Translations under genes and position numbers: made by a program
In this document: positions 913 to 15,222 of the stretch, piece by piece
Layout of the letters: each line of letters opens with the position of its first letter
How positions within the stretch are numbered: the stretch's first letter is position 1
Source of the DNA: Vicinamibacterales bacterium
GTDB taxonomy: Bacteria > Acidobacteriota > Vicinamibacteria > Vicinamibacterales > Fen-181
Direction of reading: 5' to 3'
Assembly: GCA_036504215.1 (NCBI GenBank)
Contig: DASXVO010000016.1
Span: forward strand, 250,001-314,000
DNA: 64,000 nt
Notes under the pieces: model-generated
Database searches by the model: none
The model's input: only the letters and a program-made list of their open reading frames with translations
Told to the model about the DNA's origin: nothing

Positions 913-1020
913 GGAGCACCTGTGGAACGTGTCTTTGGGTGATTCGTCCCGTGATGCTACCATAGCGCTCTGCCCCGTCTCCGTGTTCTCCATCCCCCTC
1001 CGTCACCGGGAGCCTTGAGC

Positions 1021-2004
1021 ATGGTGTTCGATCCGCCGGCGGCGGGCCGCCGCGAATTCCTGCTGCGCGTGCTGCGGGTAGGCGGCGTGAGCGCGGCGAC
1101 CTTGGGCGGCGCCGCCTGGCTGCGCAGCCGAAGCGACAAGCCGAGGGAATCCGATGTCCTCGTCGCCGATCGCCGCACCGGGGTGCCCACCGACCCCGGC
1201 CTGCCGGAGATGGTCGTCGCACAAGGCGAATCGCCGCAGGCGCTCCTCCGCCGGGCGCTCGACGAACTCGGCGGCATCCGCCGCTTCATTGCCAGAGGCG
1301 ACGTCGTCGTCGTGAAGCCGAACATCGGGTGGGACCGGGGGCCCGAGCAGGCCGCCAATACGAATCCGGTGCTCGTCGCGGAAATCGTGCGCGTGTGCCA
1401 GGAGGCGGGCGCGAAGCGGATCGTCGTGACCGACGTCAGCTGCAATGACGCACGGATGTGCTTCGAGCACAGCGGCATCGCGGCGGCGGCGAAGGATGCC
1501 GGTGCGGACGTGATCTTGCCCGACGAGCGGCGGTTCCGGGAAGTGAACCTGGGCGGCGACGTCCTCACGACTTGGCCCGTGCTCGAACCGTTCCTCTCGG
1601 CGGACAAGATCATCAACGTGCCGATTGCCAAACACCACAGCCTGACCGGCTGCACGGTCGGCATGAAGAACCTCTACGGCATCATCGGCGGACAGCGGAG
1701 CCGGCTGCACCAGCGGATCAACGAGAGCCTCGTGGACCTGACGGCCTTCGTACGCCCGACGCTGACCATCGTCGATGCCTATCGCGTGCTGATGCGCGGC
1801 GGACCGACGGGCGGCAGCCTGGCGGACGTGGAGTTCAAGAAGACGTTGCTCGCGGGCACCGACCCGGTCGCCCTCGATTCCTACGCGGCCAAGGCCTGGT
1901 GGGATCTCGACCACCAGCGACTGCCCTTCCTGCGAATTGCGCAGGCCCGGGGCCTGGGGAAGGCGAACTTCGAAGAGGTGCGGACGAAGATCGTGACGGT
2001 GTGA
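1021..2004 (+). CDS. Tat-exported DUF362 domain protein
   Basis: A 327-residue protein with a twin-arginine signal (GRREFLLRVLRVGG, then a hydrophobic stretch to about residue 40) followed by a DUF362 domain. Visible DUF362 features are VVVKPNIGWD near residue 95, a Cys-containing TDVSCND segment, and IINVPIAKHHSLTGCTVGMKN near residue 205. DUF362 proteins often sit next to ferredoxins and are thought to act in redox or Fe-S chemistry, but no general reaction is known. ATG 1021 is chosen because GGGAG sits 8 bases upstream; a TTG at 1015 is in the same frame. It is the first gene of a likely operon and ends 9 bases before the polyferredoxin gene. Confidence 0.88.
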   Translation: MVFDPPAAGRREFLLRVLRVGGVSAATLGGAAWLRSRSDKPRESDVLVADRRTGVPTDPGLPEMVVAQGESPQALLRRALDELGGIRRFIARGDVVVVKPNIGWDRGPEQAANTNPVLVAEIVRVCQEAGAKRIVVTDVSCNDARMCFEHSGIAAAAKDAGADVILPDERRFREVNLGGDVLTTWPVLEPFLSADKIINVPIAKHHSLTGCTVGMKNLYGIIGGQRSRLHQRINESLVDLTAFVRPTLTIVDAYRVLMRGGPTGGSLADVEFKKTLLAGTDPVALDSYAAKAWWDLDHQRLPFLRIAQARGLGKANFEEVRTKIVTV

Positions 2005-2013
2005 GCCACTCCT

Positions 2014-3822
2014 ATGGCTGTCCTCTCCCAACCGACTCTCGCGCGACTCCGACGCGTCTCACAGGTCGCGTTCGTTGCGGCGTTTCTCTTCCTCCTGTTC
2101 AAGTCGGAGTTCACTGGTTCGTTCCGGGGTGCAGTCGGCGACGTCCGCCTCCCATGGCCGGTCTCCCTGTTCCTCGAGGCCGACCCGCTCTCCGCCCTCA
2201 CCACAGCGCTGTCGACGCGCACGCTGTATCGCGGTCTGTGGTGGAGCCTCGTCGTGCTGGTTCCCACGTTCTTTCTCGGCCGGTTCTTCTGCGGTTGGAT
2301 CTGTCCGCTCGGCACGCTCAACCACTTCTTCGGCAGCCTGCGCTCGGAGAAGAAGCGCGGCAAGTCGCTCATCGAGTCGAACCGCTACAAGCCCTGGCAG
2401 GCGACGAAGTACTACATCCTCGTCGTCGTGCTGGTGGCCGCAGCGTGTGGAACGGCCGTCGCGGGCATCGTCGATCCCATTCCTCTCACCGTTCGTTCGC
2501 TGGGCCTGGCGCTCCTCCCGGGCGTCCACTACGCGTTCGGCAGCCTGCTGGACGTGTGGTATCAAAGCCCGGTTCGCTGGGTCCGTGTCGGCGCCGACAT
2601 CGTCCAGTTCCTGCTCCAGGGCACGCTCGTCACCTTCAGGCAGCCGCACTTCCGCCAGGCCTTCATCCTCGGCGTCATGTTCGTCGGCCTGCTCGCGCTC
2701 AATCTCCGTATTACCCGGTTCTGGTGCCGTGCGATCTGCCCGCTGGGTGCGTTGCTGGGCCTCGCTTCGCGCTGGTCGTTCGTGCACCTCGTGAAGGACC
2801 AGGCGCGGTGCGACACCTGTAACCGGTGCCTGGTACACTGCCAGGGCGGCGATGATCCGATCCCCGGGCCGAAGTGGAAGAAGGCCGAGTGCCACCTCTG
2901 CTTCAACTGCGTGGGGGACTGCCCGACGGGCGGCATCGCCTTCGCCATCGGATCTCCCGTGTCGCTGTCAACGACCGTCGAGGTTCCGCAGGCACAGCGG
3001 CGAAAGCTGATCACCGGCGCGGTGGCGGGCGCCGCGCTGGTACCGCTGCTCCGGTCAACGACCGGCCTGAAGGTCGAAGCCGACTCACGTCTCATCCGTC
3101 CACCGGGCGCCCTCGACGAACCGCACTTCCTCGAGCGGTGCATCCGCTGCGGCGAATGCATGAAGGTCTGCCCGAACAACGCGCTCCACCCGACGTTCAT
3201 GGAGGGCGGCCTCGAGGCGATCTGGTCGCCCGTGCTCGTACCACGCGTCGGCTACTGCGAGCCGAGCTGTGTGCTGTGCGGTCAGGCCTGTCCGACCGGC
3301 GCCATCTGGGAAATCACCGTCGCGCAGAAACTCGGCAAGCCAAGCGGCATGCAGACCGCGGGCGAGACGCCCGCGCCACTCGCAGCCGGGCCACTCGCAG
3401 CCAGACCACTCGCAGCCAGACCACTCGCAGCCGGACCACCCGCAGCCAGACCACTCGCAGCCGGGCCGAGTGGCACAGGCGCCCCGCCTGTGCAGACGGC
3501 CAACCCCATCAAGATTGGCACCGCCTTCTACGACCAGGGCCGCTGCCTCCCCTGGGCGATGGCCACCGACTGCATTGTCTGCGAGGAGTGGTGCCCGACA
3601 TCGCCCAAGGCGATCTACCTGGTGACGACCGACATCACCGACGCCGAGTCGAACTCGAAGTCGGTGCGCCGGCCGTACGTCGATCCCAAGCGCTGCATCG
3701 GATGCGGCGCCTGCGAGTACGCCTGCCCGGTGAAGGACCGGCCGGCCGTCTACGTGACGAGCGTCGGCGAGACGCGATCGAAGACGAACCAGTTCATTCT
3801 GCCCGCGGCACCGAAACGTTAG
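2014..3822 (+). CDS. NapH-type membrane polyferredoxin with in-frame repeat insertion
   Basis: A 602-residue integral membrane 4Fe-4S protein. The N-terminal part has about five transmembrane segments and two cytoplasmic CxxxCP motifs (FCGWICPLG near residue 92, WCRAICPLG near residue 237), as in NapH/NosR/CcoG-type electron-transfer proteins. Several 4Fe-4S motifs follow: CDTCNRCLVHC, CHLCFNCVGDC, CIRCGECMKVC, CEPSCVLCGQAC, CIVCEEWC and CIGCGACEYAC. It probably passes electrons between the quinone pool and the flanking exported DUF362 proteins. Between the fifth and sixth clusters (residues about 447-494) an Ala/Pro repeat with no Fe-S function is inserted in frame; it matches a palindromic DNA repeat (3357-3493). 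The neighbours are DUF362 genes on both sides. Confidence 0.9.
   Translation: MAVLSQPTLARLRRVSQVAFVAAFLFLLFKSEFTGSFRGAVGDVRLPWPVSLFLEADPLSALTTALSTRTLYRGLWWSLVVLVPTFFLGRFFCGWICPLGTLNHFFGSLRSEKKRGKSLIESNRYKPWQATKYYILVVVLVAAACGTAVAGIVDPIPLTVRSLGLALLPGVHYAFGSLLDVWYQSPVRWVRVGADIVQFLLQGTLVTFRQPHFRQAFILGVMFVGLLALNLRITRFWCRAICPLGALLGLASRWSFVHLVKDQARCDTCNRCLVHCQGGDDPIPGPKWKKAECHLCFNCVGDCPTGGIAFAIGSPVSLSTTVEVPQAQRRKLITGAVAGAALVPLLRSTTGLKVEADSRLIRPPGALDEPHFLERCIRCGECMKVCPNNALHPTFMEGGLEAIWSPVLVPRVGYCEPSCVLCGQACPTGAIWEITVAQKLGKPSGMQTAGETPAPLAAGPLAARPLAARPLAAGPPAARPLAAGPSGTGAPPVQTANPIKIGTAFYDQGRCLPWAMATDCIVCEEWCPTSPKAIYLVTTDITDAESNSKSVRRPYVDPKRCIGCGACEYACPVKDRPAVYVTSVGETRSKTNQFILPAAPKR
3357..3493. repeat. 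Composite palindromic / 15-bp tandem repeat inside the polyferredoxin gene
   Basis: A hairpin CGCGGGCG-AGA-CGCCCGCG (3357-3375) is followed by six tandem 15-bp units of the form CCACTCGCAGCCRGR (3376-3465) and a second hairpin GCACAGGCG-CCC-CGCCTGTGC (3473-3493). Both stems pair perfectly. Elements with the core GGCACAGGCG...CGCCTGTGC recur as REP-like intergenic repeats in acidobacterial and planctomycete-type genomes (from memory). Here the unit lies in a coding sequence and keeps the frame open because the repeat unit is a multiple of three. It encodes an Ala-Ala-Pro-Leu-rich linker. Confidence 0.85.
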
Positions 3823-3909
3823 GCGGCAAGGGGCGGCCAGAGGCCGGGAGATGGCTTGGGGGATTGGGAGCAGGAACCGGGAATTCATCCGCAGCTGAAA
3901 GGCAGTCTT

Positions 3910-5118
3910 GTGAAAAAGAAATACCGCTCGATGGAAGTGGCGCCAGGGTTCAGCCGTCGGGACTTCGTGAAATCAATTGGTGCCGCGTCGGCCGCGGCCG
4001 CCGGCGGCCTCGTTCTCGCCGGCCCGGGCTTCGGCCAGACCGCTCCGCCGCAAGCACCGGTCGAGACCAACATCGCCGACTTCCTGAAGGTGCCGAAGAC
4101 CGCGCGTTCGCTGCCGGGCCCGTTCCCCGGCAAGGTCGTGAAGGTCACCGACAAGCGGTCGCTCGTGGCGGAGAAGTTCGACGGCAAGGCCATCGGCGAG
4201 ATGGTCGAGAAGGGGATCACGACACTCACCGGCAAGAACATGAAGGAGTCGTTCAAGCTCCTCATCGACCCCAAGGACGTCGTCGGCATCAAGGTGAACC
4301 CGGTCGGGCCTCCGCTCATCCACACGCATCCGGAGGTCGTGGACGCGGTCATCAAGTGGCTGGTGGACAACGGTCTCCCCAAGGGCCAGATCGTCATCTG
4401 GGACCGCTTCGACTACATGCTCAAGGACGCGGGCTACACACCAGACCGCTTCCCGGGCATCGCGCTCGAGGGCCTGCAGACGATGGACGAGGAGGGGAAC
4501 AAGTGGCGGGGACCGGATGGGAACCACGTGTCGATCAACAACTTCGACAAGGACGTCTACTACTTCGCCAAGGGCATCGTCGGCAAGGGCGTAAAGGGCT
4601 ACAAGGATGACGAGTTCTATCTGAACCAGCACGTCTTCAACGGCGAGTACTCGTACTTCGGGAAGTTGCTGACCAAGAAGCTCACCCGGATCATCAACGT
4701 CGCCGCCTACAAGAACACCGGCGCGTCGATCTCGATGGCGACGAAGAACATGGGCTATGCCTCGCTCTGTAACGTCGGCCGGCTGCACGCGCCGCTGGCC
4801 TTCAAGGCGAGCACCGAGGTCCTGGCCGCGCCGGTGCTGCGGGACAAACTCGCCCTGAACATCACCGACGGCCTGCGCGGTCAGTACGATGGCGGCCCCG
4901 ACAAGAACGCCCAGTTCGTCTACGAGAACCACTCGCTCTACTTCGCGACCGATCCGTTTGCCCTGGACATGCTCTGTCACCAGGAAATCAACGCGAAGCG
5001 GAAGGAGATGGGCGCGACGGTCAACGAGAGCCCGCGGCTCACCGAGTACCTGCGCTACGCCGAGCAACTCGGCCTCGGCGTGGTGGCGGCGGACAAGATG
5101 CAGATTGTGAGGGTGTAG
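3910..5118 (+). CDS. Second Tat-exported DUF362 domain protein
   Basis: A 402-residue exported protein. A Tat signal (SRRDFVKSIGAASA followed by an Ala/Gly-rich hydrophobic stretch ending near GFGQT) precedes a long DUF362 domain with VVGIKVNPVGPPLIHTH, RIINVAAYKNTGASISMATKN and LNITDGLRG segments. It is longer than the first DUF362 protein at 1021 and only distantly similar to it, so the pair is not a recent duplication. GTG 3910 is the preferred start (a purine-rich AAAGGCAG lies upstream); ATG 3931 in the same frame would still leave the whole Tat motif. The 87-base gap after the polyferredoxin and the 2-base gap to the DUF6599 gene suggest one transcript. Confidence 0.86.
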   Translation: MKKKYRSMEVAPGFSRRDFVKSIGAASAAAAGGLVLAGPGFGQTAPPQAPVETNIADFLKVPKTARSLPGPFPGKVVKVTDKRSLVAEKFDGKAIGEMVEKGITTLTGKNMKESFKLLIDPKDVVGIKVNPVGPPLIHTHPEVVDAVIKWLVDNGLPKGQIVIWDRFDYMLKDAGYTPDRFPGIALEGLQTMDEEGNKWRGPDGNHVSINNFDKDVYYFAKGIVGKGVKGYKDDEFYLNQHVFNGEYSYFGKLLTKKLTRIINVAAYKNTGASISMATKNMGYASLCNVGRLHAPLAFKASTEVLAAPVLRDKLALNITDGLRGQYDGGPDKNAQFVYENHSLYFATDPFALDMLCHQEINAKRKEMGATVNESPRLTEYLRYAEQLGLGVVAADKMQIVRV

Positions 5119-5120
5119 GA

Positions 5121-6077
5121 ATGAGGCGGCTCCTGCTCGCGTTCGTGGCCGTCGCGGTTGGAAGCGCCTGGCAACTGGCGGCCGGCGCCCCGCTCGCACC
5201 CGGTCCGGTCGGCTCCGCACCCGGGAACGGCCATCCTGTCAGCCTGGGAACCGCACAGGCGGCAAGGACCTCCGGGGACGCCGCGCTGATGCCTGCCGAA
5301 GCGGGTCTCCCCGGTTGGAAGAGGATCGAGAACCAGCGCGTGTTCACCCGTGCGGACCTCTACGGGTACATCGACGGCGGCGCGGAACTGTTCCTGGAGC
5401 TTGGGTTCGATCAACTGACGCTCCAGAAATACCGCAACGGATCGAACGACGTCGCCGTGGAGATCTACCGGATGGCGGACGGAGCGGCGGCAACCGGCAT
5501 CTACCTGATGAAGTGCGGGAAGGAAACGCATGATCCGGCGTTCAAGGAGCGCCACACGATCAACCGTCACCAGTTGATGTTCGCGCGGGATCGTTACTAC
5601 GTCACGATTAACAACCTGTCCGGCGCGGACACGATGGCGCCGGAGCTCGTTCGGTTCGGATCGCTCGTCGGATCGAAGCTGCCGACCGACCGCCCTCCGG
5701 TCGAGCTGCAGCGCCTGCCGGTCGCGGGTCTCGTCGCGGGGTCGCAGCGACTGATCCGGGGCCCGTTTTCACTGCAGGCGCTCTACACCCTCGGTGACGG
5801 CGATATTCTGCAACTCGGCGGGAAGCTGACCGCCGTCGCGGGCAACTACAGGGACGCGGGCGGCGCATACACGCTCGTGGCGGTCGCCTATCCGGACGCC
5901 GCGGCCGCCAGGAAGGCGCTCGCCAACGTGCAACAGAACCTCGACAAGTACCTGAAATCCGTCAATTCGACGCCGTCGCGACTGGTGTTCAAGGACTACG
6001 AGAACAAGTTCGGCAGCCTGACTCTGACCGGGCGGCAGATCGAGATTCGGCTGCACCTGACCCGTCAACCGCAGTAG
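5121..6077 (+). CDS. DUF6599 family secreted protein
   Basis: A 318-residue protein of unknown function with a Sec-type signal peptide (MRRLLLAFVAVAVGSAW; cleavage probably in the Ala-rich stretch near residue 25). The mature part shows the DUF6599 pattern: GWKRIENQRVF, then LYGYIDGGAELFLELGFDQL, then VEIYRMADGAAATGIYLMK. No catalytic or metal motif is evident. It begins 2 bases after the DUF362 gene and is the last member of the 1.0-6.1 kb set, so it may be a periplasmic partner of that redox module. The function of that module is not known. Confidence 0.8.
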   Translation: MRRLLLAFVAVAVGSAWQLAAGAPLAPGPVGSAPGNGHPVSLGTAQAARTSGDAALMPAEAGLPGWKRIENQRVFTRADLYGYIDGGAELFLELGFDQLTLQKYRNGSNDVAVEIYRMADGAAATGIYLMKCGKETHDPAFKERHTINRHQLMFARDRYYVTINNLSGADTMAPELVRFGSLVGSKLPTDRPPVELQRLPVAGLVAGSQRLIRGPFSLQALYTLGDGDILQLGGKLTAVAGNYRDAGGAYTLVAVAYPDAAAARKALANVQQNLDKYLKSVNSTPSRLVFKDYENKFGSLTLTGRQIEIRLHLTRQPQ

Positions 6078-6547
6078 GTTGGCGACCCGACTCACTCCCG
6101 GAGTGGCCTGGCGCGACGGGCACCGGGACGCTTGGCGCCAAGTCGTTCCGAGAGCGGGTCTTGCGGGTGACACAGCCGCCGTGGATTTCAACAGCGCAAA
6201 TAGTAGACAAAACCGCACTCGTGCTGTGAAATCCCGCGCCGAAAACTCGGCGACACTTTGTGAACAGATTCACAAAAGCCCCTTGTCTGCTTCTCGCTGA
6301 TCCGTCAGAATATATCGGATCGGACGCGGCCGCAGACCGTGTCGAAGGCCACCAGGCTCATACTCGTCCGTTGACGTCTTCATTCATCGTCGCTCTCGTG
6401 GCTCTCGTCGGGGACAGTCTCTCGTCCTGTCGTCTGCTGCCGATCCGAGTTTGGTAACGGCACCGCCATCCTGGCGGCGCGACAAACTGGGTCCCCCTCG
6501 GGAAGGCACAGCATTTCCTACCTCATTCTCCATCAAGGGATTTGTCC
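6078..6547. other. 470-base intergenic leader of the hydrogenase operon
   Basis: No convincing coding sequence is seen here. The stretch separates the DUF6599 gene from the hydrogenase operon and contains the CRP-like palindrome at 6257-6276, a possible -10 (TATATC, 6311-6316) about 40 bases further, and a long presumed 5' untranslated region before ATG 6548. Confidence 0.6.
6257..6276. promoter_or_regulatory. CRP/FNR-superfamily operator candidate
   Basis: The palindrome TTTGTGAA-CAGA-TTCACAAA is perfect over 8-bp arms and contains TGTGA-N6-TCACA, the exact CRP consensus. It lies 180 bases after the upstream stop codon and 271 bases before the first hydrogenase gene. The A/T-rich TATATC at 6311-6316 would put the palindrome centre near -56 of a start site near 6323. 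The site is seen directly; which CRP/FNR-family protein binds it is inference. Confidence 0.6.
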
Positions 6548-7036
6548 ATGTACGACCTGCTGATCGTGGCGGCAATCCTGGCGTGTGCGTTCCAGGCAGT
6601 GCGGGGCACACGTCTGCTGATTGCCGCGCTCTGGCTGGCGGGCGCCTCGGCGCTCACGGCTCTCATGATGTATCGCCTTGGGGCACCCGAGGTGGCGGTC
6701 ATCGAACTCAGCGTCGGCGCCGGTCTCGTCACCGTGCTGTTCGTGTTCGCCATCAACATTGCCGGGGAGGAGCCACCCGTCACGCTACGGTCCCTCGTCC
6801 CGGCGCCCCTCGCGTGGATCGCGGCGCTTGGCGCCGTGGCCCTCGGGGCCTGGATGGCGATCCCGAATCTGCGGGCGGAGGCCGGCCTCGTGCAGCCCGA
6901 TCGGTTTGCCACCGTGCTCTGGGAGCAACGGCGCCTGGACGTGCTGCTTCAGATCGTGCTCATCATCGGCGGCGTTCTGGCCGTGCTCGGCCTCCTCTCG
7001 GAGGGGCGCTCGCACGCCCGGAAGGAGAACCACTAA
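6548..7036 (+). CDS. MbhD/DUF4040-like membrane subunit of hydrogenase complex
   Basis: A 162-residue membrane protein with about four to five hydrophobic segments. It carries the DUF4040/MbhD signature: LLIAALWLAGASALTALMMY, then GAPEVAVIELSVGAGLVTVLF, as in MbhD of membrane-bound hydrogenases and the equivalent segment of MrpA. In such complexes this subunit helps couple ion antiport to the hydrogenase arm. The start is ATG 6548 with AAGGGA upstream; a TTG at 6542 would add two residues. The gene opens an eleven-gene operon, and its stop overlaps the next start (TAATG at 7034-7038). Confidence 0.82.
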   Translation: MYDLLIVAAILACAFQAVRGTRLLIAALWLAGASALTALMMYRLGAPEVAVIELSVGAGLVTVLFVFAINIAGEEPPVTLRSLVPAPLAWIAALGAVALGAWMAIPNLRAEAGLVQPDRFATVLWEQRRLDVLLQIVLIIGGVLAVLGLLSEGRSHARKENH

Positions 7037-7347
7037 TGTCGCTCTCGCTTCCCCTGCTCTCCGCCGTGGCGGTGCTCGGGCTGCTCGGTATCGGGCTGCT
7101 CGGGCTGCTGGTCACGCGCAACCTGATCAAAGTGGTCGTGGGCATGCAGGTCCTGGTCAAGGGGGCGATGCTCGCGCTCGTACTCGCGGGCAAGCTCTCC
7201 GGCCAGATTCAGACCGGCCAGACGCTCGCGTTGACCGTGATCGTGGCCGACACGATCGTCTCCGTCGTTGCCCTGGCCTTTGCGGTGCAGGTGCGGCGGC
7301 AGTTCGGCACCCTGGATCTCCAGGCGCTGTCGACGCTGCGGAGGTAG
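7036..7347 (+). CDS. NuoK/MrpC-like membrane subunit
   Basis: A 103-residue, three-helix membrane protein. The segments NLIKVVVGMQVLVKGAMLAL and TLALTVIVADTIVSVVALAF are typical of the NuoK/MrpC/MbhG family, with a conserved-type acidic residue (Asp in VIVADTIV) in the third helix. It would form part of the ion-translocating domain. Its ATG overlaps the stop codon of the preceding gene, and the next gene starts 4 bases after its stop, so translation is probably coupled. Confidence 0.85.
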   Translation: MSLSLPLLSAVAVLGLLGIGLLGLLVTRNLIKVVVGMQVLVKGAMLALVLAGKLSGQIQTGQTLALTVIVADTIVSVVALAFAVQVRRQFGTLDLQALSTLRR

Positions 7348-7351
7348 GCCC

Positions 7352-9106
7352 ATGCCGACGATTTCAACACTCGCCATTCTCTCGATTGCCGTGCCGTGGC
7401 TCGGCGCCGTGGTCATCTGGCTGCTCCGCGACCGCGAGGCGTGGGTTCAGCACGCGCTGGCCGTGGCCTTCGCGCTCGCCGGCGCGGTGGCCGCCGTCGC
7501 GATGATCCCGTTGCGGACCGAGTCGAACGTGCTGGACTTCCCGCTCGGCGCGGCGTTCGGCCAGGTGACGTTTCTCCCCGACGGTCTGGCCGTCTTCCTC
7601 GCCGTCGTCGCGGCCGTCATCGGCAGCCTGGCGGTCATCTTCTCGGTCGACTACATGAAGGGCGAGAAGCAGCTCGCCCGCTATTACGCCTACGTGCTCT
7701 TCTTCATCGGCTCGATGGTGGGCCTGGTGCTCTCGAGCAATCTGCTGGTCGTGTTCGTCTTCTGGGAGATCACCGCGCTCTGTTCCTACGCGCTCATCTC
7801 GTTCTACAACGACGACCCGAAGGCCGTGGCTGCGGGCATCAAGGCGCTCATCATCACGCAGGTTGGCGGCATCGGTCTGCTGGCCGGCGCCTTGTTCCTC
7901 TTCGTCTATCAGGGAAGCTACGACGTGCCGACGTTCCTGGCGAACGCGGGCAAGATCCCGGCCAACGTCCTCGCCCTGATGGCCTTCGGATTCCTCGTGG
8001 CGGCGGCGGCGAAGTCGGCGCAGTTCCCGTTCCAGACCTGGCTGCCGGATGCGATGGAAGCCCCGACGCCGATCAGCGCGCTGATCCACGCCGCGACGAT
8101 GGTGAACGCGGGCGTGTATCTGCTGGCGCGCTTCTACCCGGCCTTCGAAGCGGTGCCGCACTGGAAGCTCGCGGTGCTGACCGTCGGCGCCGTCACGGCG
8201 CTGATGGCCGCGCTGATGGCGGTCGTCTCCAATGACCTGAAGCGGGTGCTCGCGTATTCGACCGTCAGCCAGCTCGGCTACATGGTTTACGCGATCGGTG
8301 CCGGCGGCCTGTTTGCGAGCCAGTTCCACCTGCTCAGCCACGCGGTCTTCAAGGCGTTGCTCTTCCTCTCGGCCGGCGCGATCATCCACGCCGCCGGCAC
8401 GCGCGACATGCGCGAGATGGGGGGCCTCGGCAGGCAGATGCCACTCGTCAGAATCGTGATGATCGTCGGCGGCCTGGCGCTCGCCGGCATCCCGATCCTG
8501 AACGGCTTCTGGAGCAAGGAACTGGTGCTCGAGGCCGGGCACGAGGGCGGGCCATATTGGGCCTGGCTGATCATGGTGTTCGGTGCCGGTCTCACCGCGC
8601 TCTACACGCTCCGGTTCATCACGATGGTGTTCTACGGCGAGCCGCGTGGAAAGGCCCACGTGCACGACGCCGGTCCCGCGATGAAGGTAGCGCTCGTGCC
8701 GCTCGCGCTCGGCACGCTCACGACCTGGCTCATCGCCGGCGAGTTCGGGGCGTTCCTGGGCAAGGCGGTCACGGGCGAGCGGCCGGTCGAATCGACCGCC
8801 GCGGTCCTGACGCAGGTCGCCACCGCGCCGCTCACGATGGTGGCCCTGGCCGTCGTCGCGCTGGGGTTGATCGCCTGGTGGCAACACGAGCGGCTGAGCG
8901 GCGTGGCGACGGCGCTCGGCGGCATCGGGACGATGGCGAGGAACAGCTTCGGGTTCGAGGCCATCAACCGGGGCGTCATTGCGGCAACGGAAGGCGCGGC
9001 CGAATCCCTGCGCGGCACGCAGAACGGCATCCTGAACTGGAACGTGATGGCGATCCTTGTCGGGCTGGTCGTCGTCCTGGCCATCCTGGCACTCGGAGGA
9101 GCCTAA
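7352..9106 (+). CDS. NuoL/MrpA-like antiporter subunit of hydrogenase complex
   Basis: A 584-residue, roughly 14-16-helix proton-conducting transporter (Proton_antipo_M family). Key ion-path residues are visible: Glu in the FWEITALCSY motif near residue 140, Lys in AKSAQFPFQTWLPDAMEAP near residue 220, and the following HAATMVNAGVYLLAR helix. It matches NuoL, MrpA and MbhH-type antiporter modules. The C-terminal segment (VMAILVGLVVVLAILAL) ends in a transmembrane helix. RBS GGAGG lies 7 bases before ATG 7352. It is one of two antiporter-like subunits in this operon. Confidence 0.9.
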   Translation: MPTISTLAILSIAVPWLGAVVIWLLRDREAWVQHALAVAFALAGAVAAVAMIPLRTESNVLDFPLGAAFGQVTFLPDGLAVFLAVVAAVIGSLAVIFSVDYMKGEKQLARYYAYVLFFIGSMVGLVLSSNLLVVFVFWEITALCSYALISFYNDDPKAVAAGIKALIITQVGGIGLLAGALFLFVYQGSYDVPTFLANAGKIPANVLALMAFGFLVAAAAKSAQFPFQTWLPDAMEAPTPISALIHAATMVNAGVYLLARFYPAFEAVPHWKLAVLTVGAVTALMAALMAVVSNDLKRVLAYSTVSQLGYMVYAIGAGGLFASQFHLLSHAVFKALLFLSAGAIIHAAGTRDMREMGGLGRQMPLVRIVMIVGGLALAGIPILNGFWSKELVLEAGHEGGPYWAWLIMVFGAGLTALYTLRFITMVFYGEPRGKAHVHDAGPAMKVALVPLALGTLTTWLIAGEFGAFLGKAVTGERPVESTAAVLTQVATAPLTMVALAVVALGLIAWWQHERLSGVATALGGIGTMARNSFGFEAINRGVIAATEGAAESLRGTQNGILNWNVMAILVGLVVVLAILALGGA

Positions 9107-9110
9107 GACC

Positions 9111-10637
9111 ATGAATCCGACTTTGGCGTTGACCTGGTTACTCGTCCTGCCCCTGGTGGCCTCGCCGATCATCTACCTGGCGGGTCGAATCAACGTGCGC
9201 CTGGGCGCGACGGCCGCCCCCGCGCGCTGGCTGTCGGCGCTGACGCTGGCCGCCGCGGGCATCCCGCTCTGGTATCTCGGTGAAGCGGTGCTCTCCGGCG
9301 GTCCGGTCGACATGGGCGTCGGGACGATCAGCCTTCGGATGGACGGTGTCGGCCTGCTGCTGGCGGGAACCGTCACCGTGCTCACCTTTCTCGTGTCAAT
9401 CTTCTCGATCCCCTACATGGCGGGCGAAGAGGGCGAGGAGAAGTACTACGCGCTGCTCGTGGCGATGGCCGGCGCGATGGTCGGTCTCGGCTGCGCGAAC
9501 GACCTCTTCAACCTGTGGGTCTGGTTCGAGGTGATGACGGTCACGTCGTTCCTTCTGGTGGCGTTCTATCGCCAACAGCGCGGGGCGCTCGAGGCCGGCG
9601 TCAAGTATCTCGTGCAGTCGGCGGTCGGCTCGGCGCTGGTGCTGATCGGCATCGCGTTCGTGTTCGCTCAGACGGGCACGCTCAACCTGCAGCAGGTCCT
9701 GGCGGCCTCGACGCACTCGACGCCACAGATGCTGGCGGCCGGCGCGCTGTTCCTCATCGGCTTCGGCGTGAAGACGGCGATGGTGCCACTGCACACCTGG
9801 CTGCCGGACGCCCACTCACAGGCCCCGAGCGGCATCAGCGCGATGCTGTCGGGCGTCGTGATCGAAGCGGGCCTCATCGCCATGCTCCGCGCGCTCGGGT
9901 GCCTGGCGCCCGTGAGCAGCACCTGGGGCGCGTTCATCCTGGCGTTCGGCGCGTTGAACATGGTTGTCGGCAACCTGATGGCGCTGCGGCAGACGCAGGT
10001 CAAGCGGATGTTCGCCTACTCGAGCGTCAGCCACATGGGCTACATGCTCATCGGATTCGGCGTGGCGGTCGGTTACGGGATTGCGAACGGCGCGGCCGGC
10101 GGGTTCTTCCACCTCTTCAATCACGCGCTGATGAAGGGCCTGGCCTTCATGGCGGCCGGCGCGCTGCTCTATTCGCTGCACGTGGCGCGGGGCAGCCATG
10201 ATTCGCTGACACTCGACGATTTGAACGGTGCCGCGAACCGCTACCCGATCACGGCCCTCGCGCTCAGCGTGGCGGTGCTCGCCCTCGGCGGCCTGCCGCC
10301 GCTCTCAGGTTTCATGTCGAAGTGGCAGATCTTCGTCGCGGGTTTCGAGACGCGGAACGCGGGCGTGGAGGCACTGGTCATCTTCGCGGCGCTCAACAGC
10401 GTGCTGTCGCTGGCGTACTATGCACCGCTCGTCAACCGGATGTACCGGCACGAACCGTCGCCAACGGTTGCAGCCGGCCATAACGTGAGCTTCCTGATGG
10501 CCGCGCCGCTGGTGGTGCTGACGCTGGCGGTGATCGTACTGGGATTCTGGCCGGGCCTCATGGACTTCATCACGCACCCGGCGGCCGTGCATTTCGTGTC
10601 CATCTTCAGCGGCGGTCCGGCGCTAGCACAGTTCTAG
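9111..10637 (+). CDS. NuoM/MrpD-like antiporter subunit of hydrogenase complex
   Basis: A 508-residue member of the proton-conducting transporter family, about 14 helices. It shows LWVWFEVMTVTSFLLVAFYR (ion-path Glu near residue 140), GVKTAMVPLHTWLPDAHSQA (Lys near residue 223) and SVSHMGYMLIGF. It is closest in type to NuoM/NuoN/MrpD. With the NuoL-like subunit at 7352 it gives two potential ion channels. RBS GGAGGAG precedes ATG 9111, which sits 4 bases after the previous stop. Confidence 0.9.
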   Translation: MNPTLALTWLLVLPLVASPIIYLAGRINVRLGATAAPARWLSALTLAAAGIPLWYLGEAVLSGGPVDMGVGTISLRMDGVGLLLAGTVTVLTFLVSIFSIPYMAGEEGEEKYYALLVAMAGAMVGLGCANDLFNLWVWFEVMTVTSFLLVAFYRQQRGALEAGVKYLVQSAVGSALVLIGIAFVFAQTGTLNLQQVLAASTHSTPQMLAAGALFLIGFGVKTAMVPLHTWLPDAHSQAPSGISAMLSGVVIEAGLIAMLRALGCLAPVSSTWGAFILAFGALNMVVGNLMALRQTQVKRMFAYSSVSHMGYMLIGFGVAVGYGIANGAAGGFFHLFNHALMKGLAFMAAGALLYSLHVARGSHDSLTLDDLNGAANRYPITALALSVAVLALGGLPPLSGFMSKWQIFVAGFETRNAGVEALVIFAALNSVLSLAYYAPLVNRMYRHEPSPTVAAGHNVSFLMAAPLVVLTLAVIVLGFWPGLMDFITHPAAVHFVSIFSGGPALAQF

Positions 10638-10670
10638 GCTCCGGGCCCGGAGCCTTCTTGCGAGGTATCT

Positions 10671-10982
10671 ATGAATTGGCTCTTGTCGCCTCCGGTTGCG
10701 TTTCTCGCGTATATCCCGCTGGTGCTCGTGATCGTCGGGGTCGGCCGCCTGTTGGCCGGCCCCGCGAACACCAGCGCCATGAAGTCGAGTGTCTATGGCA
10801 GTGGCGAGGCATCGCCCACGTTCGAGGCGGCCCCGGGCTACCAGCCGTTCTTCCTGATCGCGCTGTTCTTCGCCGTCGTGCACCTGGCGATGCTGGTGCT
10901 CGGCGTCGGCAGTCTGCCGGCGCCGGCGGGCATCTACCTCATCGGGCTCTTCATCGCCCTCGTGGCGCTCATTCTCGGATAG
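10671..10982 (+). CDS. NuoA-like (ND3) membrane subunit
   Basis: A 103-residue protein with three transmembrane segments. The first loop (YGSGEASPTF) takes the place of the YECG-type loop of NuoA, and PFFLIALFFAVVHLAMLVLG matches the second ND3 helix. A NuoA-like subunit next to an [NiFe]-hydrogenase is less common than the other subunits; in complex I, NuoA with NuoH and NuoK lines the coupling site near the quinone cavity. The gene is 33 bases after the NuoM-like gene and 10 bases before the small-subunit gene. Confidence 0.78.
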   Translation: MNWLLSPPVAFLAYIPLVLVIVGVGRLLAGPANTSAMKSSVYGSGEASPTFEAAPGYQPFFLIALFFAVVHLAMLVLGVGSLPAPAGIYLIGLFIALVALILG

Positions 10983-10992
10983 GAGCGTAGGT

Positions 10993-11481
10993 ATGGCAAA
11001 CCAGTCGCTGCTCCAGGCCATCATGAATCCCCTGCGGACCTGGGCGCGCGTGAATTCGCCGTGGGCCATTCACTTCAACAGCGGCTCGTGCAACGGGTGC
11101 GACATCGAGATCCTCGCCACGCTCACGCCGCGTTACGACATCGAGCGGTTCGGCATCAAGCTCCAGGGCAGCCCGCGGCACGCGGACGTTCTCATCTGCA
11201 CCGGTCCAGTCACACGCCAGGCGAAGGACCGCCTGGTGCGGGTCTACGAGCAGATGCCCGACCCGAAATTCGTCGTGGCCGTCGGGTCGTGCGGCATCTC
11301 CGGCGGGGCCTTCCAGGGCTGCTACAACATCGTCGGCAGCCTCGCGGATGTCATTCCCGTCAGTGCCTTCGTCCCGGGATGTCCGCCGCGTCCCGAAGCC
11401 ATCATCTATGGCGTCGTCGCGCTGCTGAACAGCCTGAAGCAACCTGCGCCGGCCGCCGCCAGCGCTGAAGCCGTGGCGTGA
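10993..11481 (+). CDS. Group 4 [NiFe]-hydrogenase small subunit (NuoB-like)
   Basis: A 162-residue electron-transfer subunit. Cys33 and Cys36 (GSCNGCDIEI), Cys100 (AVGSCGISGG) and Cys130 (VPGCPPRPE) form the proximal 4Fe-4S site shared by NuoB, EchC and MbhJ. The SCNGCD spelling is that of hydrogenases rather than of complex I. It passes electrons between the [NiFe] site of the large subunit at 12125 and the ferredoxin-type subunit at 14267. RBS GGAG lies before ATG 10993. Confidence 0.92.
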   Translation: MANQSLLQAIMNPLRTWARVNSPWAIHFNSGSCNGCDIEILATLTPRYDIERFGIKLQGSPRHADVLICTGPVTRQAKDRLVRVYEQMPDPKFVVAVGSCGISGGAFQGCYNIVGSLADVIPVSAFVPGCPPRPEAIIYGVVALLNSLKQPAPAAASAEAVA

Positions 11482-11491
11482 GGAGACTGGA

Positions 11492-12007
11492 ATGGACACC
11501 GCACAGACATTGACCACGGCACAGACCCTGTTGCAGCCCGTCACGGTGGGAGCGCCGAAGATCGAAGGCCACCGCCTGGATATCCCGGTGAAACGGGAGG
11601 ACCTCCTGCGCGCCGTCAAGATCCTGGTTGACGCGCACTGGGGCTACCTGTCGGCCATCACGGGCCTCGACCTTCCCTGGCCGAAGCCGAAGCCGGGAAT
11701 CAAGCCGGCGGAGCCCGCGCCCGAGGCCGGACCGCTCGAGGACGAGCTCGAGGCGCTGTACCACTTTGCGAGCGGCGCGGCCGTCGCGACCATCCGCGTG
11801 CGCGTGCCGTATCACGACACCCGCATCCCGAGCATCTGCCCGATCATTCCGTCGGCCACGCTCTACGAGCGCGAGTTGCAGGAGATGCTCGGGTTCATCG
11901 TCGAGGGCACGCCGGTGCCCGACAAGCTGTTGCTGCCCGACGATTGGCCGGCGGGGCTGTACCCGCTGCGGAAGTCGTTCACCGGGGCCGAGCTGGCCGG
12001 CAAGTAG
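11492..12007 (+). CDS. NuoC-like hydrogenase subunit
   Basis: A 171-residue soluble subunit of the NuoC/EchD/MbhK family. Visible marks are WGYLSAITGLD near residue 50, ALYHF, and ERELQEMLGFIVEGTP near residue 127 followed by LLLPDDWPAG, the usual NuoC C-terminal pattern. A Pro/Lys/Glu-rich insert (residues about 63-85) separates the two halves and would be a surface loop. In these complexes NuoC supports assembly of the small and large subunits. It lies 10 bases after the small-subunit gene and 117 bases before the large-subunit gene; that gap holds only an RBS (CGGAGG). Confidence 0.87.
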   Translation: MDTAQTLTTAQTLLQPVTVGAPKIEGHRLDIPVKREDLLRAVKILVDAHWGYLSAITGLDLPWPKPKPGIKPAEPAPEAGPLEDELEALYHFASGAAVATIRVRVPYHDTRIPSICPIIPSATLYERELQEMLGFIVEGTPVPDKLLLPDDWPAGLYPLRKSFTGAELAGK

Positions 12008-12124
12008 CACGGACAGCCCGCGCGGGGAACCAACAGGCCGCGGGAAGACACCGGCCTGAACGAAGGGCGGCAAACGAAGATCGGAGAACGTGGGGCCAGG
12101 CTTGCGCCTCGCCCGGAGGATACG

Positions 12125-13309
12125 ATGGACACGCAGCAGGAACTCCGCAAGAAATTCGTGGTGCCGATCGGGCCGCAGCATCCGGCCCTGAAGGAACCCG
12201 GGCACTTCGAGATCACGGTGGACGGCGAGATCGTGACCGCTGCCTCGGCCCGGCTCGGCTACGTGCACCGCGGCATCGAGAAGGGCGTCGAGAAGGGCAA
12301 CTGGGCGCAGGGCATGTACATGCTGGAGCGGATCTGCGGGATCTGCTCGCACGTGCACGCCACCGCCTACGCGCTCGGCGTCGAGGCGTTGGCCGGCGTC
12401 CAGGCGCCTCCTCGGGCGCAGGCCATCCGTGTCCTGGTCGCCGAACTGGAGCGCGTCCACAGCCACTTCCTGTGGCTTGGCGTCGCGGCGCACGAGGGGG
12501 GGTTCGACACGCTGTTCATGTACTCGTGGCGCGACCGCGAGCTCATCATGGACGTCCTCGAGGGCCTGACCGGCAATCGCGTCAACTACTCCTGCAACGT
12601 CCTGGGCGGCGTGAAGTTCGACGTGGACGAGACGCAGGCGGACGCGATCAGGAAGGCCATCGACTTCCTCGAGCCGCGCACGCACCACTACCTGAAGGTC
12701 GTGACGACCGACGAGACGCTGATCGGCCGCACCCGCGGCGTCGGGAGGCTGAACCAGGAACAGGCCGATGCCCTCGGGGCCGTGGGCCCGACGGCGCGCG
12801 CCTCCGGCGTGCCGCGCGACATCCGCGTCGACGCGCCCTACGCCGCCTACCCGGATTTCCCGGTCAAGACGATTACCGCCACGGCCGGCGACCTCGAGGC
12901 CAAGTTCGTCTGCCGCCTCCAGGAGCTCTTCGAGAGCTACCGCGTCATCCGCGAGATCCTCGACAAGCTGCCTCCCGGCGACCTCACCGTGAAGGTGAAG
13001 CCGCGCGTGCCGGCGGGCGAGACGATCAGCCGCGTCGAAGCGCCCCGCGGTGAACTGTTCTACTACCTGAAGAGCTCGGGCGGGCCGAATCCGGACCGTG
13101 TGAAGGTACGGACCCCGAGCCTGTGCAACTGGGGCACGGTGCTCGTGACCGCGCCCGGCCACAAGCTGGCCGACGTCCCGATGCTCATTGCCGGTATCGA
13201 CCCGTGCTTCTCCTGCAACGACCGCCTCGTCACCATCCATCGTCGCGCGGACGCGGAAACGTGGACGTGGGCCCGGCTGCGCCAATACGGAATCGAGTAC
13301 TACCGATGA
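12125..13309 (+). CDS. Group 4 [NiFe]-hydrogenase large (catalytic) subunit
   Basis: A 394-residue NuoD/HycE/EchE-type protein that keeps both nickel-binding motifs: RICGIC (Cys71, Cys74, followed by His78) and DPCFSC (Cys361, Cys364). Complex I NuoD lacks these Cys, so this is a hydrogenase that makes or uses H2. After Arg367 come 27 further residues; this tail fits removal by the maturation protease encoded at 14728 (cleavage after the Arg, as in HycE, is inferred). The stop overlaps the NuoH-like start (ATGA at 13306-13309). RBS CGGAGG lies ahead of ATG 12125. Confidence 0.94.
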   Translation: MDTQQELRKKFVVPIGPQHPALKEPGHFEITVDGEIVTAASARLGYVHRGIEKGVEKGNWAQGMYMLERICGICSHVHATAYALGVEALAGVQAPPRAQAIRVLVAELERVHSHFLWLGVAAHEGGFDTLFMYSWRDRELIMDVLEGLTGNRVNYSCNVLGGVKFDVDETQADAIRKAIDFLEPRTHHYLKVVTTDETLIGRTRGVGRLNQEQADALGAVGPTARASGVPRDIRVDAPYAAYPDFPVKTITATAGDLEAKFVCRLQELFESYRVIREILDKLPPGDLTVKVKPRVPAGETISRVEAPRGELFYYLKSSGGPNPDRVKVRTPSLCNWGTVLVTAPGHKLADVPMLIAGIDPCFSCNDRLVTIHRRADAETWTWARLRQYGIEYYR

Positions 13310-14223
13310 CCAACAACCTGCCACCACTCGTCGCGCTGTTGATTCTGCCCGGCGGCCTGTTCCTGCTGTCGGTGAGTACGGTGTACGAATGGGCCGACCG
13401 CAAGCTGGTCGCCCGGTTCCAGAACCGAATCGGCCCACGCTGGTTCCAGCCCGTCGCCGACATCGTCAAGCTCCTCGCGAAGGAGGAGATCGTCCCGGAC
13501 GGCTCGAATCGCGTGCTGTTTCACGGACTGCCGGTCGTGGCGCTCATCGGCACGCTCACTGCCGGGCTCTACGTACCGATGGCGGGGTTGGCACCATCGT
13601 ACAGCTTCACGGGAGACCTGATCGTCACGCTCTACCTGCTGAGCCTGATGACGTTGTGCATGGGGCTGGCCGGCGCCAATACCATCGACCGCTTCTCGCT
13701 CGTCGGCGCCACGCGCGCGCTGACGCAGCTGTTCTCGTACGAGGCGCCGTTCCTGCTCGCGCTGCTCGGCCCGGCGATCGTCGCCAATACCTGGCAGATC
13801 AGCGAGGTCAACACCTACGCGGCCAAGCACTGGTGGTTCGTCCTCACGCAGCCGGTGGGCTTCATCGTGGCGATCATTGGCCTGATGGGCAAACTGGAAC
13901 TGCCGCCGTTCGATTCTCCCGAGGCCGAAACCGAGATCGTCGCCGGCCCGATGACGGAGTACAGCGGCCGCGGGTGGGGCCTCTTCCGTCTCGGCCGCGA
14001 TGTCGAGTTGTTCGTCGGTCTGACATTACTCGCGGCGTTCTACCTTGGCGGGATCGCCAATCCGATCGAGTTCATCGTGAAGACGGGCGTGCTGCTGCTC
14101 GTCACCGCCGGTCTGCAGTCGCTGTTCTGCCGCTTGAGGATCGACCAGACGGTCGGCCTCTGGTGGCGCGTCGGCGTGCTGCTCGCACTCGCGCAATTGC
14201 TCGTGCTCGTGTTCATCCGATAG
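13306..14223 (+). CDS. NuoH-like membrane subunit (EchB/MbhM type)
   Basis: A 305-residue protein with about eight transmembrane helices that anchors the hydrogenase arm to the membrane. NuoH family marks are ADRKLVARFQNRIGPRWFQP near residue 28, the AKEEIVP loop, and KLELPPFDSPEAETEIVAGP near residue 198 with its acidic cluster, followed by TEYSGRGWGLF. In complex I this subunit forms much of the quinone cavity and the ion-coupling channel. The start overlaps the large-subunit stop, so translation is coupled. Confidence 0.91.
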   Translation: MTNNLPPLVALLILPGGLFLLSVSTVYEWADRKLVARFQNRIGPRWFQPVADIVKLLAKEEIVPDGSNRVLFHGLPVVALIGTLTAGLYVPMAGLAPSYSFTGDLIVTLYLLSLMTLCMGLAGANTIDRFSLVGATRALTQLFSYEAPFLLALLGPAIVANTWQISEVNTYAAKHWWFVLTQPVGFIVAIIGLMGKLELPPFDSPEAETEIVAGPMTEYSGRGWGLFRLGRDVELFVGLTLLAAFYLGGIANPIEFIVKTGVLLLVTAGLQSLFCRLRIDQTVGLWWRVGVLLALAQLLVLVFIR

Positions 14224-14266
14224 GACCTGTTCGTAGCGCAAGTCTCGTGGCTTGCGAGGAGCGGAT

Positions 14267-14713
14267 ATGAGAATCGGCGCAATGCTTGGTGACATCTCGC
14301 GGTCGCTGTTCAAGCGCCCGATCACGGAGCGGTACCCGTTCGAACGGAAACCGACTCCCGAACGCCTGCGGGGCCACCTGATGTTCGATCCCTCGAAGTG
14401 CACGGGCTGCAAGATCTGCGTGCGCGACTGCCCGGCGCTCGGGATCGAGTTGATGGTGGTGGACAAGGTCAACAAGCGCTTCGTGATGCGCTTCCACACC
14501 GACCGCTGCACCTACTGCGCGCAGTGCGTGGTGAGCTGCAACTTCGACGCGCTCGGCATGTCGCACGAGAACTGGGAACTGGCGGCCCTCAGCAAGGAGG
14601 CGTTCGAGGTATCACTCGGCCGCGAAGAGGACATCCAGGCGCTGCTGAACCAGGTGTCCTGCGCCCCGACGACGCCGGCGAAGCCGCCGACCCCGCTCCC
14701 CTCTCCGGCGTGA
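14267..14713 (+). CDS. NuoI-like 2x[4Fe-4S] ferredoxin subunit
   Basis: A 148-residue electron-transfer subunit with two complete motifs, CTGCKICVRDCP (near residue 46) and CTYCAQCVVSCN (near residue 84). It matches NuoI, EchF and MbhN and is the expected docking point for soluble ferredoxin. ATG 14267 is chosen because of GAGGAG just upstream; a TTG at 14252 and an ATG at 14282 are in frame. The stop overlaps a GTG at 14710 that is an alternative start for the protease gene. Confidence 0.9.
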   Translation: MRIGAMLGDISRSLFKRPITERYPFERKPTPERLRGHLMFDPSKCTGCKICVRDCPALGIELMVVDKVNKRFVMRFHTDRCTYCAQCVVSCNFDALGMSHENWELAALSKEAFEVSLGREEDIQALLNQVSCAPTTPAKPPTPLPSPA

Positions 14714-14727
14714 GCGTTCGGACCGGC

Positions 14728-15222
14728 ATGTCCCTCGCTCTCCCAACTCCCCGCCCCGCGCGCGTCGCCATCCTCGGCGTCGGCAACGACATGAATGGCG
14801 ATGATGGCGCAGGGGTCTCGGTCGTGCGGGAACTGGCTGCGCGGATGCCGGCAACGCCGGGCGTGCTGCTGATCGACGGCGGGACCGCCCCCGAGAACTT
14901 CACCGGCCCGATCCGCCGGTTTCGCCCCGACCTCGTCATCGAGATCGACGCTGCCGACCAGGGAGAACCTCCGGGAACGGTCGCGTGGATTGACTGGCGG
15001 GAGGCCGATGGCATGAGCGCCTCGACGCACACGCTGCCGCCATCGGTGCTCGCCAACTATCTGTCATCTGAACTCGGCTGCCGGGTCGCCCTCGTCGGCA
15101 TCCAGCCCGAAGGCCTCGAAATGGGCACCCCGCTCTCACCCACCGTGGCTTCCGCCGTTCGCGACCTGGCGGACGCCCTCAGCGGCTGGTTCGCCGATCG
15201 CACTCAGGGCATCGCCGAGTGA
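14728..15222 (+). CDS. [NiFe]-hydrogenase maturation protease (HycI/HybD type)
   Basis: A 164-residue endopeptidase that trims the C-terminus of the large subunit after nickel insertion. GVGNDMNGDDGAGV near residue 16 carries the metal-sensing Asp of the family; IEIDAAD (near residue 72) and the SASTHTLPPS and GIQPEGLEMG segments are also typical. GTG 14710, which overlaps the previous stop, could add six residues. The gene being last in the operon and the C-terminal tail on the large subunit support each other. hypA-F genes are not in the window. Confidence 0.9.
   Translation: MSLALPTPRPARVAILGVGNDMNGDDGAGVSVVRELAARMPATPGVLLIDGGTAPENFTGPIRRFRPDLVIEIDAADQGEPPGTVAWIDWREADGMSASTHTLPPSVLANYLSSELGCRVALVGIQPEGLEMGTPLSPTVASAVRDLADALSGWFADRTQGIAE

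Follow-up and report, generated by a model that had tools for sequence, protein, structure and literature searches.

Which regulator, and hence which signal, controls the hydrogenase operon that starts at position 6548 of the window (the whole 64-kb stretch of DNA that was analysed)? The operon is preceded by a 470-bp gap, bounded by a DUF6599 gene (stop at 6077) on one side and by the first hydrogenase gene (ATG at 6548) on the other. In this gap, 271 nt 5' of the eleven genes of the operon, lies the palindrome TTTGTGAA-CAGA-TTCACAAA (6257-6276, no strand assigned; 18-bp core at 6258-6275). An earlier note gave these letters and coordinates exactly, took the palindrome to be an exact CRP consensus at the head of the operon, and suggested control by cAMP or redox through a protein of the CRP/FNR family. 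We arrive at another regulator: judged from the sequence, the palindrome is very probably the Rex operator (ROP) of a group 4 [NiFe] hydrogenase operon, which Rex would hold off and NADH would release.

The eleven-gene run headed by the palindrome is indeed a [NiFe] hydrogenase operon, complete with a HycI maturation protease, and all of its genes are on the + strand. It begins with an MbhD/NuoJ-like gene (6548-7036; PF13244 over cut-off), followed by genes for a NuoK/MnhC-like subunit (7036-7347; PF00420), a NuoL-like antiporter subunit (7352-9106; PF00361 and PF00662, with TIGR01974 over cut-off), a second antiporter-like subunit of the NuoN/MrpD kind (9111-10637; PF00361) and a small membrane subunit (10671-10982) which gave no Pfam or NCBIfam match and which its position in the operon suggests to be NuoA-like. 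Then come the NuoB-like hydrogenase small subunit (10993-11481; PF01058, with TIGR01957 over cut-off), a NuoC-like subunit (11492-12007; PF00329), the catalytic, NuoD-like [NiFe] large subunit (12125-13309), a NuoH-like membrane subunit (13306-14223; PF00146), a NuoI-like 2x[4Fe-4S] ferredoxin subunit (14252-14713; PF12838) and the HycI protease (14725-15222, start codon approximate; PF01750, E 2.3e-18 on 14713-15219). The best solved relative of the large subunit is 6cfw_L, the alpha subunit of a membrane-bound hydrogenase (E 6.3e-80), and in the alignment to it both nickel-binding cysteine pairs are present, CGIC and DPC-x2-C. The nickel-cysteine motifs in the NuoD-like subunit, together with the NuoB/C/H/I-like and antiporter subunits, place the enzyme in group 4 of the [NiFe] hydrogenases. 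Among named organisms, those closest in this operon are Acidobacteria MAGs; over the upstream stretch compared, two of these MAGs are identical in sequence to G072 and G075, genomes of the window's genus and family. Upstream of the gap, on the same strand (1015-6077 of the window), are genes for two DUF362 proteins, a multi-[4Fe-4S] protein and the DUF6599 protein; genes adjoining the hydrogenase operon recur in three relatives (G072, G074 and G076).

A palindrome of this quality is unlikely by chance in GC-rich DNA, and on this point the earlier note was right: at the window's 67% GC, a genome of 5.92 Mb should hold about 0.001 perfect copies of TTGTGAANNNNTTCACAA. The whole 5.9-Mb genome holds one perfect copy only, that at 6257-6276, which is also the sole match in the 64-kb window when up to 3 mismatches are allowed; none of 100 dinucleotide shuffles of the window gave any match at this tolerance. 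With at most 2 mismatches the genome has nine sites, against one for a reversed-pattern control.

The claim of an exact CRP consensus is correct for the ten-base core TGTGA-N6-TCACA (10/10). This core is common to CRP and Rex operators, which accounts for the match; to the full 22-bp CRP consensus the agreement falls to 11/22. The fit to the FNR operator TTGAT-N4-ATCAA is 6/10, and the palindrome does not qualify as an FNR operator. Against the Rex operator TTGTGAANNNNTTCACAA all 14 positions agree. This sequence is quoted as the Rex operator in three papers (PMC6391272, PMC13077300, PMC5355995), and by the account of papers citing it, its source is Ravcheev 2012. The same three papers describe Rex as a repressor which senses NADH/NAD+ and leaves the DNA as NADH rises.

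The genome has two rex genes. Their products, Rex1 (contig C89) and Rex2 (contig C39), score 248 and 197 bits against NF003995, for which the cut-off is 126; both match solved Rex structures, and they are 36% identical to each other. Orthologues of Rex1 (77-81% identity) occur in G071, G072, G073, G074 and G076, all relatives from the same family, and orthologues of Rex2 in G071 (79%) and G076 (83%). In G075 the second Rex is a distant one (41% identity to Rex2); it adjoins a molybdopterin oxidoreductase and has two sites in front. The rex2 gene itself is preceded by the site CTGTGAATCACTTCACAG (2 mismatches), 18 bp 5' of its called start; it is followed by genes for NuoE, NuoF and an NADH-dependent group A6 [FeFe] hydrogenase, and HydG is encoded upstream of it. 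In front of the Rex2 orthologue of G076 there are two sites, and in front of that of G071 nothing closer than a variant palindrome, which has 4 mismatches. It should be noted that the gene starts in the fetched loci are those of our own gene caller.

A scan of the genome for the palindrome, proposed by the earlier note together with a list of the genes downstream, gave the nine sites mentioned above, and the genes alongside them were read. Apart from the sites at 6257-6276 and at rex2, one lies before a second [FeFe] A6 cluster and one overlaps the nuoA start. Of the remaining five, two belong to a cluster for an Mtr-type cytochrome and a porin, and one of these two lies within the end of the ORF in front. 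The other three fall within ORFs; one of them, in the ORF ahead of atpB, is also seen in G072 and the loci L139 and L142. The nuoA site is found in the source genome (G000), G075 and G076. At the second [FeFe] A6 cluster the sequence TTGTGCC-N4-TTCACAA stands 5' of the response-regulator gene in the source genome, G072, G073, G074 and G076; its TTGTGCC half deviates from the Rex consensus. An asymmetric site, TTGTGCC-N3-CTTCACAA (L018:5166-5183, and in L181, L187 and L189), was seen 118-139 bp 5' of the response-regulator gene of the [FeFe] A6 cluster, and in G076 (L203) this gene has two sites, 194 and 217 bp upstream.

The distribution of sites and regulators was surveyed in 193 genomes of the class, where a site was allowed at most 1 mismatch and a genome was taken as Rex-positive when a Rex scored over the Pfam cut-off. 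A site was found in 147 genomes and a Rex over the cut-off in 138 (141 at E 0.001). The site is present in 128 of the 138 Rex-positive genomes versus 19 of the 55 Rex-negative ones (odds ratio 24, p 2e-16), in counts which ignore phylogeny; within the order the corresponding figures are 128/138 and 17/24 (p 0.005). Among the 19 Rex-negative genomes with a site 14 are less than 90% complete. The same test was applied to proteins like the C85 pair, the tandem CRP-type proteins of contig C85 discussed below, and it covers the C85-like type only, with any match at E 0.001 accepted, distant kin included. Here the odds ratio is 1.5 (p 0.33) in the class and 1.0 (p 1.0) in the order; the Rex-negative and the C85-negative genomes were partly derived by elimination from the 193. 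The site occurs in 27 of 29 genomes which have a Rex and no C85-like match, versus 12 of the 36 in which a C85-like match was found and a Rex was not, and among the 31 class-only genomes 21 have a C85-like protein, two of these with a site. Because the odds ratio is 24 for Rex and a non-significant 1.5 for the C85-like proteins, we conclude that the distribution of the site follows Rex and not the C85-like pair. Tandem paralogues of the CRP family with the recognition helix TTRSRVNFF were observed at L024:4799-6245, and 145 of the 193 genomes gave matches to them at E 0.001.

Thirty of the class sites were read, one per genome, being the first 30 among the matches listed. Seven are at nuoA, six at a multihaem cytochrome gene (in five cases with a divergent ABC transporter gene) and five at an atpI-like gene; the rest are within an atp-region ORF (three, with atpB called adjacent in two), at nadA (three), at another ABC transporter gene (three) and elsewhere (three). 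Most of these loci were typed by likeness of the first 60 residues, and one per main type was confirmed by Pfam. The site is conserved at other NADH-linked genes, i.e. nuo, atp, nadA and hydrogenases.

Could a member of the CRP/FNR family be the regulator all the same? According to this alternative a cAMP- or redox-sensing protein, for example the tandem C85 pair, binds TGTGA-N6-TCACA and activates the operon, and the nearest case would be of the HcpR type: the consensus of Desulfovibrio HcpR, TTGTGANNNNNNTCACAA, written TTGTGAN6TCACAA in PMC545781, is nearly identical to the sequence found here. CRP/FNR regulators were sought as the earlier note had advised. In the genome 3 proteins with a CRP-type HTH score over cut-off, besides 9 cNMP-binding matches and 2 to Guanylate_cyc (class III cyclase), and the operator lies 5' of the putative -35 box described below, where an activator would sit. 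Arg180, Glu181 and Arg185 are the residues with which CRP contacts its bases, and none of the three proteins over cut-off has all of them (three more HTH matches are below cut-off): the C85 pair is without equivalents of Glu181 and Arg185, and the C33 protein has both of these and misses that of Arg180. The C85 pair does keep the Arg180 equivalent, the residue linked to this signal in PMC545781, but C85-like proteins do not track the sites. The likeness to HcpR, which belongs to the CRP/FNR family, is one of consensus; Rex is of another protein family. A further point against CRP comes from the 20 TTGTGA-N6-TCACAA sites of the order: 26 of their 40 half-sites have A as the seventh base, which the CRP core leaves unspecified; the argument is only a modest one since the centre of these sites is A-rich as well (36/80). 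Of the earlier proposal there remains a redox-related operator for the hydrogenase operon. The assignment to CRP/FNR is unsupported because the palindrome agrees with Rex at 14 of 14 positions, because there are two rex genes, one of them behind such a site and together with an [FeFe] hydrogenase, and because the sites follow Rex; we consider it improbable.

Conservation upstream of orthologous operons had been named in the earlier note as a test of the site. Besides the source genome, six relatives in the family carry the operon's first gene; in one of them, G071, the contig starts at this gene, leaving the upstream DNA unreadable. Among the six species with readable upstream DNA the operator precedes the orthologous operon in four, the source genome, G073, G075 and G076. 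At these Mbh-type operons the site is perfect in G076, has 1 mismatch in G073 and is present as two perfect copies 22 bp apart in G075. The sister species G072 and G074 have no site upstream of the operon, though both have kept the operon and Rex1; their leader aligns, the stretch at the operator position does not. Because L025 and L027 have the same sequences as G072 and G075 over the upstream stretch compared, G072 and G075 were each counted once. Set against Rex2, the operator of the operon is found in both readable species with this paralogue (the source genome and G076) and also in G075, and it is found in one of the three species in which only Rex1 was detected (G073; not G072 and G074). 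The absence in two close relatives is what one would expect if the palindrome were a product of chance or an unused sequence such as a relic, yet a sequence expected at about 0.001 copies per genome is present at the operon here and again at its orthologues in three further species, and this explanation seems very unlikely to us. The Rex reading is preferred because of the complete agreement with the consensus, the two rex genes, the sites at the orthologous operons, those at rex2, two [FeFe] clusters and nuoA, and the co-occurrence in the class. Speaking against it are the missing site in G072 and G074, the position relative to the putative promoter described below, the variant palindrome of G071, the deviating TTGTGCC half, the five sites elsewhere in the genome and the 19 Rex-negative genomes that have a site.

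The AT-rich -10 candidate pointed out in the earlier note is present, GAATAT at 6308-6313 on the + strand (AGAATA also in G073 and G076), yet a sigma-70 consensus scan of 5900-6700 called no promoter. A candidate -35 box, TTGTCT (6283-6288, + strand), lies 7 bp past the operator core and 19 bp before the -10 candidate; -35-like boxes in the relatives are TTGTCT in G073 and TTGTCG in G076, each 6 bp past the operator core. With this putative promoter the operator would span about -62 to -45, on the 5' side of the -35 box, whereas the Rex operators of nuoA1 and atpI in S. avermitilis include the -35 region (PMC5355995). Since the putative promoter places the operator upstream of the -35 box, repression of the operon can only be presumed; an activating role of the operator, or a different promoter, is possible. 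The long 5' leader (6314-6547, + strand, about 230 nt) is alike within the genus, with 79% identity to G072 and 78% to G074, and has no convincing RNA structure; it is partly alike in G073 and G076. A structured leader RNA or riboswitch is not proposed here, as the fold z-score against shuffles was -0.56, covariation among five sequences was weak and no Rfam family was found at gathering score. That the palindrome is no protein site but an RNA or DNA hairpin, i.e. a terminator or processing site, was rejected as very unlikely, for although its 8-bp arms with a 4-nt loop are able to pair, the stem is AT-rich without a T run, no terminators were found in 5900-6700, and the element lies upstream of the putative promoter.

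Ech is a group 4 [NiFe] hydrogenase. Rex control of such hydrogenases is already known in Bacillota: it is published for the [NiFe] Ech and [FeFe] hydrogenases of Caldicellulosiruptor (PMC6391272), and for Parageobacillus Ech there is a prediction (PMC13077300). The Rex regulon of Caldicellulosiruptor bescii comprises Ech, the [FeFe] hydrogenase Hyd, hydG and rex itself, with gel-shift support (PMC6391272). We find the same operator consensus and likewise [NiFe] and [FeFe] hydrogenases and rex as predicted targets; the differences are that C. bescii is a member of Bacillota for which gel shifts are available, whereas the present case is a prediction, with relatives named Acidobacteria, a pair of Rex paralogues, an operon of the Mbh/Mrp type and two clusters for A6 [FeFe] enzymes. 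The Ni-CODH/Ech operon of Parageobacillus sp. G301 has a predicted Rex site, TTGTGAA-N4-TTCACAA, and is expressed when electron acceptors are lacking (PMC13077300). It thus shares with our locus the same consensus before an energy-converting hydrogenase operon, but according to the same text it is CO dehydrogenase-linked, while no CO dehydrogenase is among the eleven genes here, and its site is 31-37 bp upstream, compared to 271 nt. In Streptomyces avermitilis the Rex targets are nuoA1-N1, the atpI operon, cydA1B1CD and rex-hem, of which the nuoA and atpI operons are proven (PMC5355995). The nuo and atp sites are found in the class Vicinamibacteria too; the regulon of S. avermitilis is aerobic, and the word hydrogenase is absent from the text of PMC5355995 as far as available. 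Among the literature matches listed, in a coverage which leaves out most subscription journals, no report of Rex control of a hydrogenase in Acidobacteriota was met.

The NADH release and the repression are carried over from this published Rex work, and by analogy with it the following sequence of events may be suggested. We infer that Rex binds at the palindrome, in the form of either Rex1 or Rex2, and the sign of the control is put forward with the same reserve. With abundant NAD+ the operator would be occupied by a Rex dimer, and the ferredoxin-linked group 4 [NiFe] operon would be off. When NADH accumulates, as oxygen or another electron acceptor is missing, Rex would be released and the hydrogenase made. 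The hydrogenase would pass surplus electrons to protons, so that the evolution of hydrogen relieves the excess of reductant, and the ion-pumping arm of the enzyme would save energy. Such an NADH/NAD+ model replaces one with a carbon or oxygen signal and calls for a different experiment. If true, Rex control of hydrogenases reaches from Bacillota to Acidobacteriota, and there is a testable rule, namely that hydrogen is made when reductant has no other outlet.

A more tentative idea concerns the division of labour between the paralogues. In this acidobacterial family Rex2, whose gene heads the run for an NADH-linked [FeFe] hydrogenase, might be a self-controlling regulator dedicated to hydrogenases. 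A single NADH/NAD+ switch would then govern the group 4 [NiFe] enzyme together with both A6 [FeFe] enzymes, nuo and atp would be served by a housekeeping Rex1, and the switch might be a later addition to an operon that Chloroflexota also possess. The evidence for the dedication of Rex2 comes from few species, and we put it forward as a possibility on the doubtful side.

Outside Acidobacteriota the closest relatives of the operon (6548-15222) are mostly from Chloroflexota (Anaerolineae; loci L028-L083), with at most 75% identity in the large subunit, and this suggests horizontal exchange of the operon. For the comparison 71 loci were taken, of which 50 had a match to the first gene and 49 of these enough upstream DNA (L044, with 185 bp, was dropped). 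A site upstream of the first gene was found in 13/49 loci at up to 2 mismatches and in 22/49 at up to 3, or, without the acidobacterial L025 and L027, in 12/47 and 21/47. The exact sequence TTGTGAT-N4-TTCACAT is present upstream of the operon in 5 of these 47 non-acidobacterial loci. Whether the operator is shared with Chloroflexota along with the operon was also considered: a quick tree of the large subunit, on which rows without readable upstream DNA were scored as lacking the site, required 11 label changes, against 13.0 in shuffles (47/500 as low), and common descent of the operator is thus unsupported.

The sites at the cytochrome clusters may finally be mentioned. A pair of palindromes resembling Rex or CRP sites (L016:4975-5047, 55 bp apart) is located at a cluster for a multihaem cytochrome and an MtrB/PioB porin, and single sites are seen in L184 and L195 at what are apparently the same multihaem cytochrome/MtrB/PioB porin clusters.
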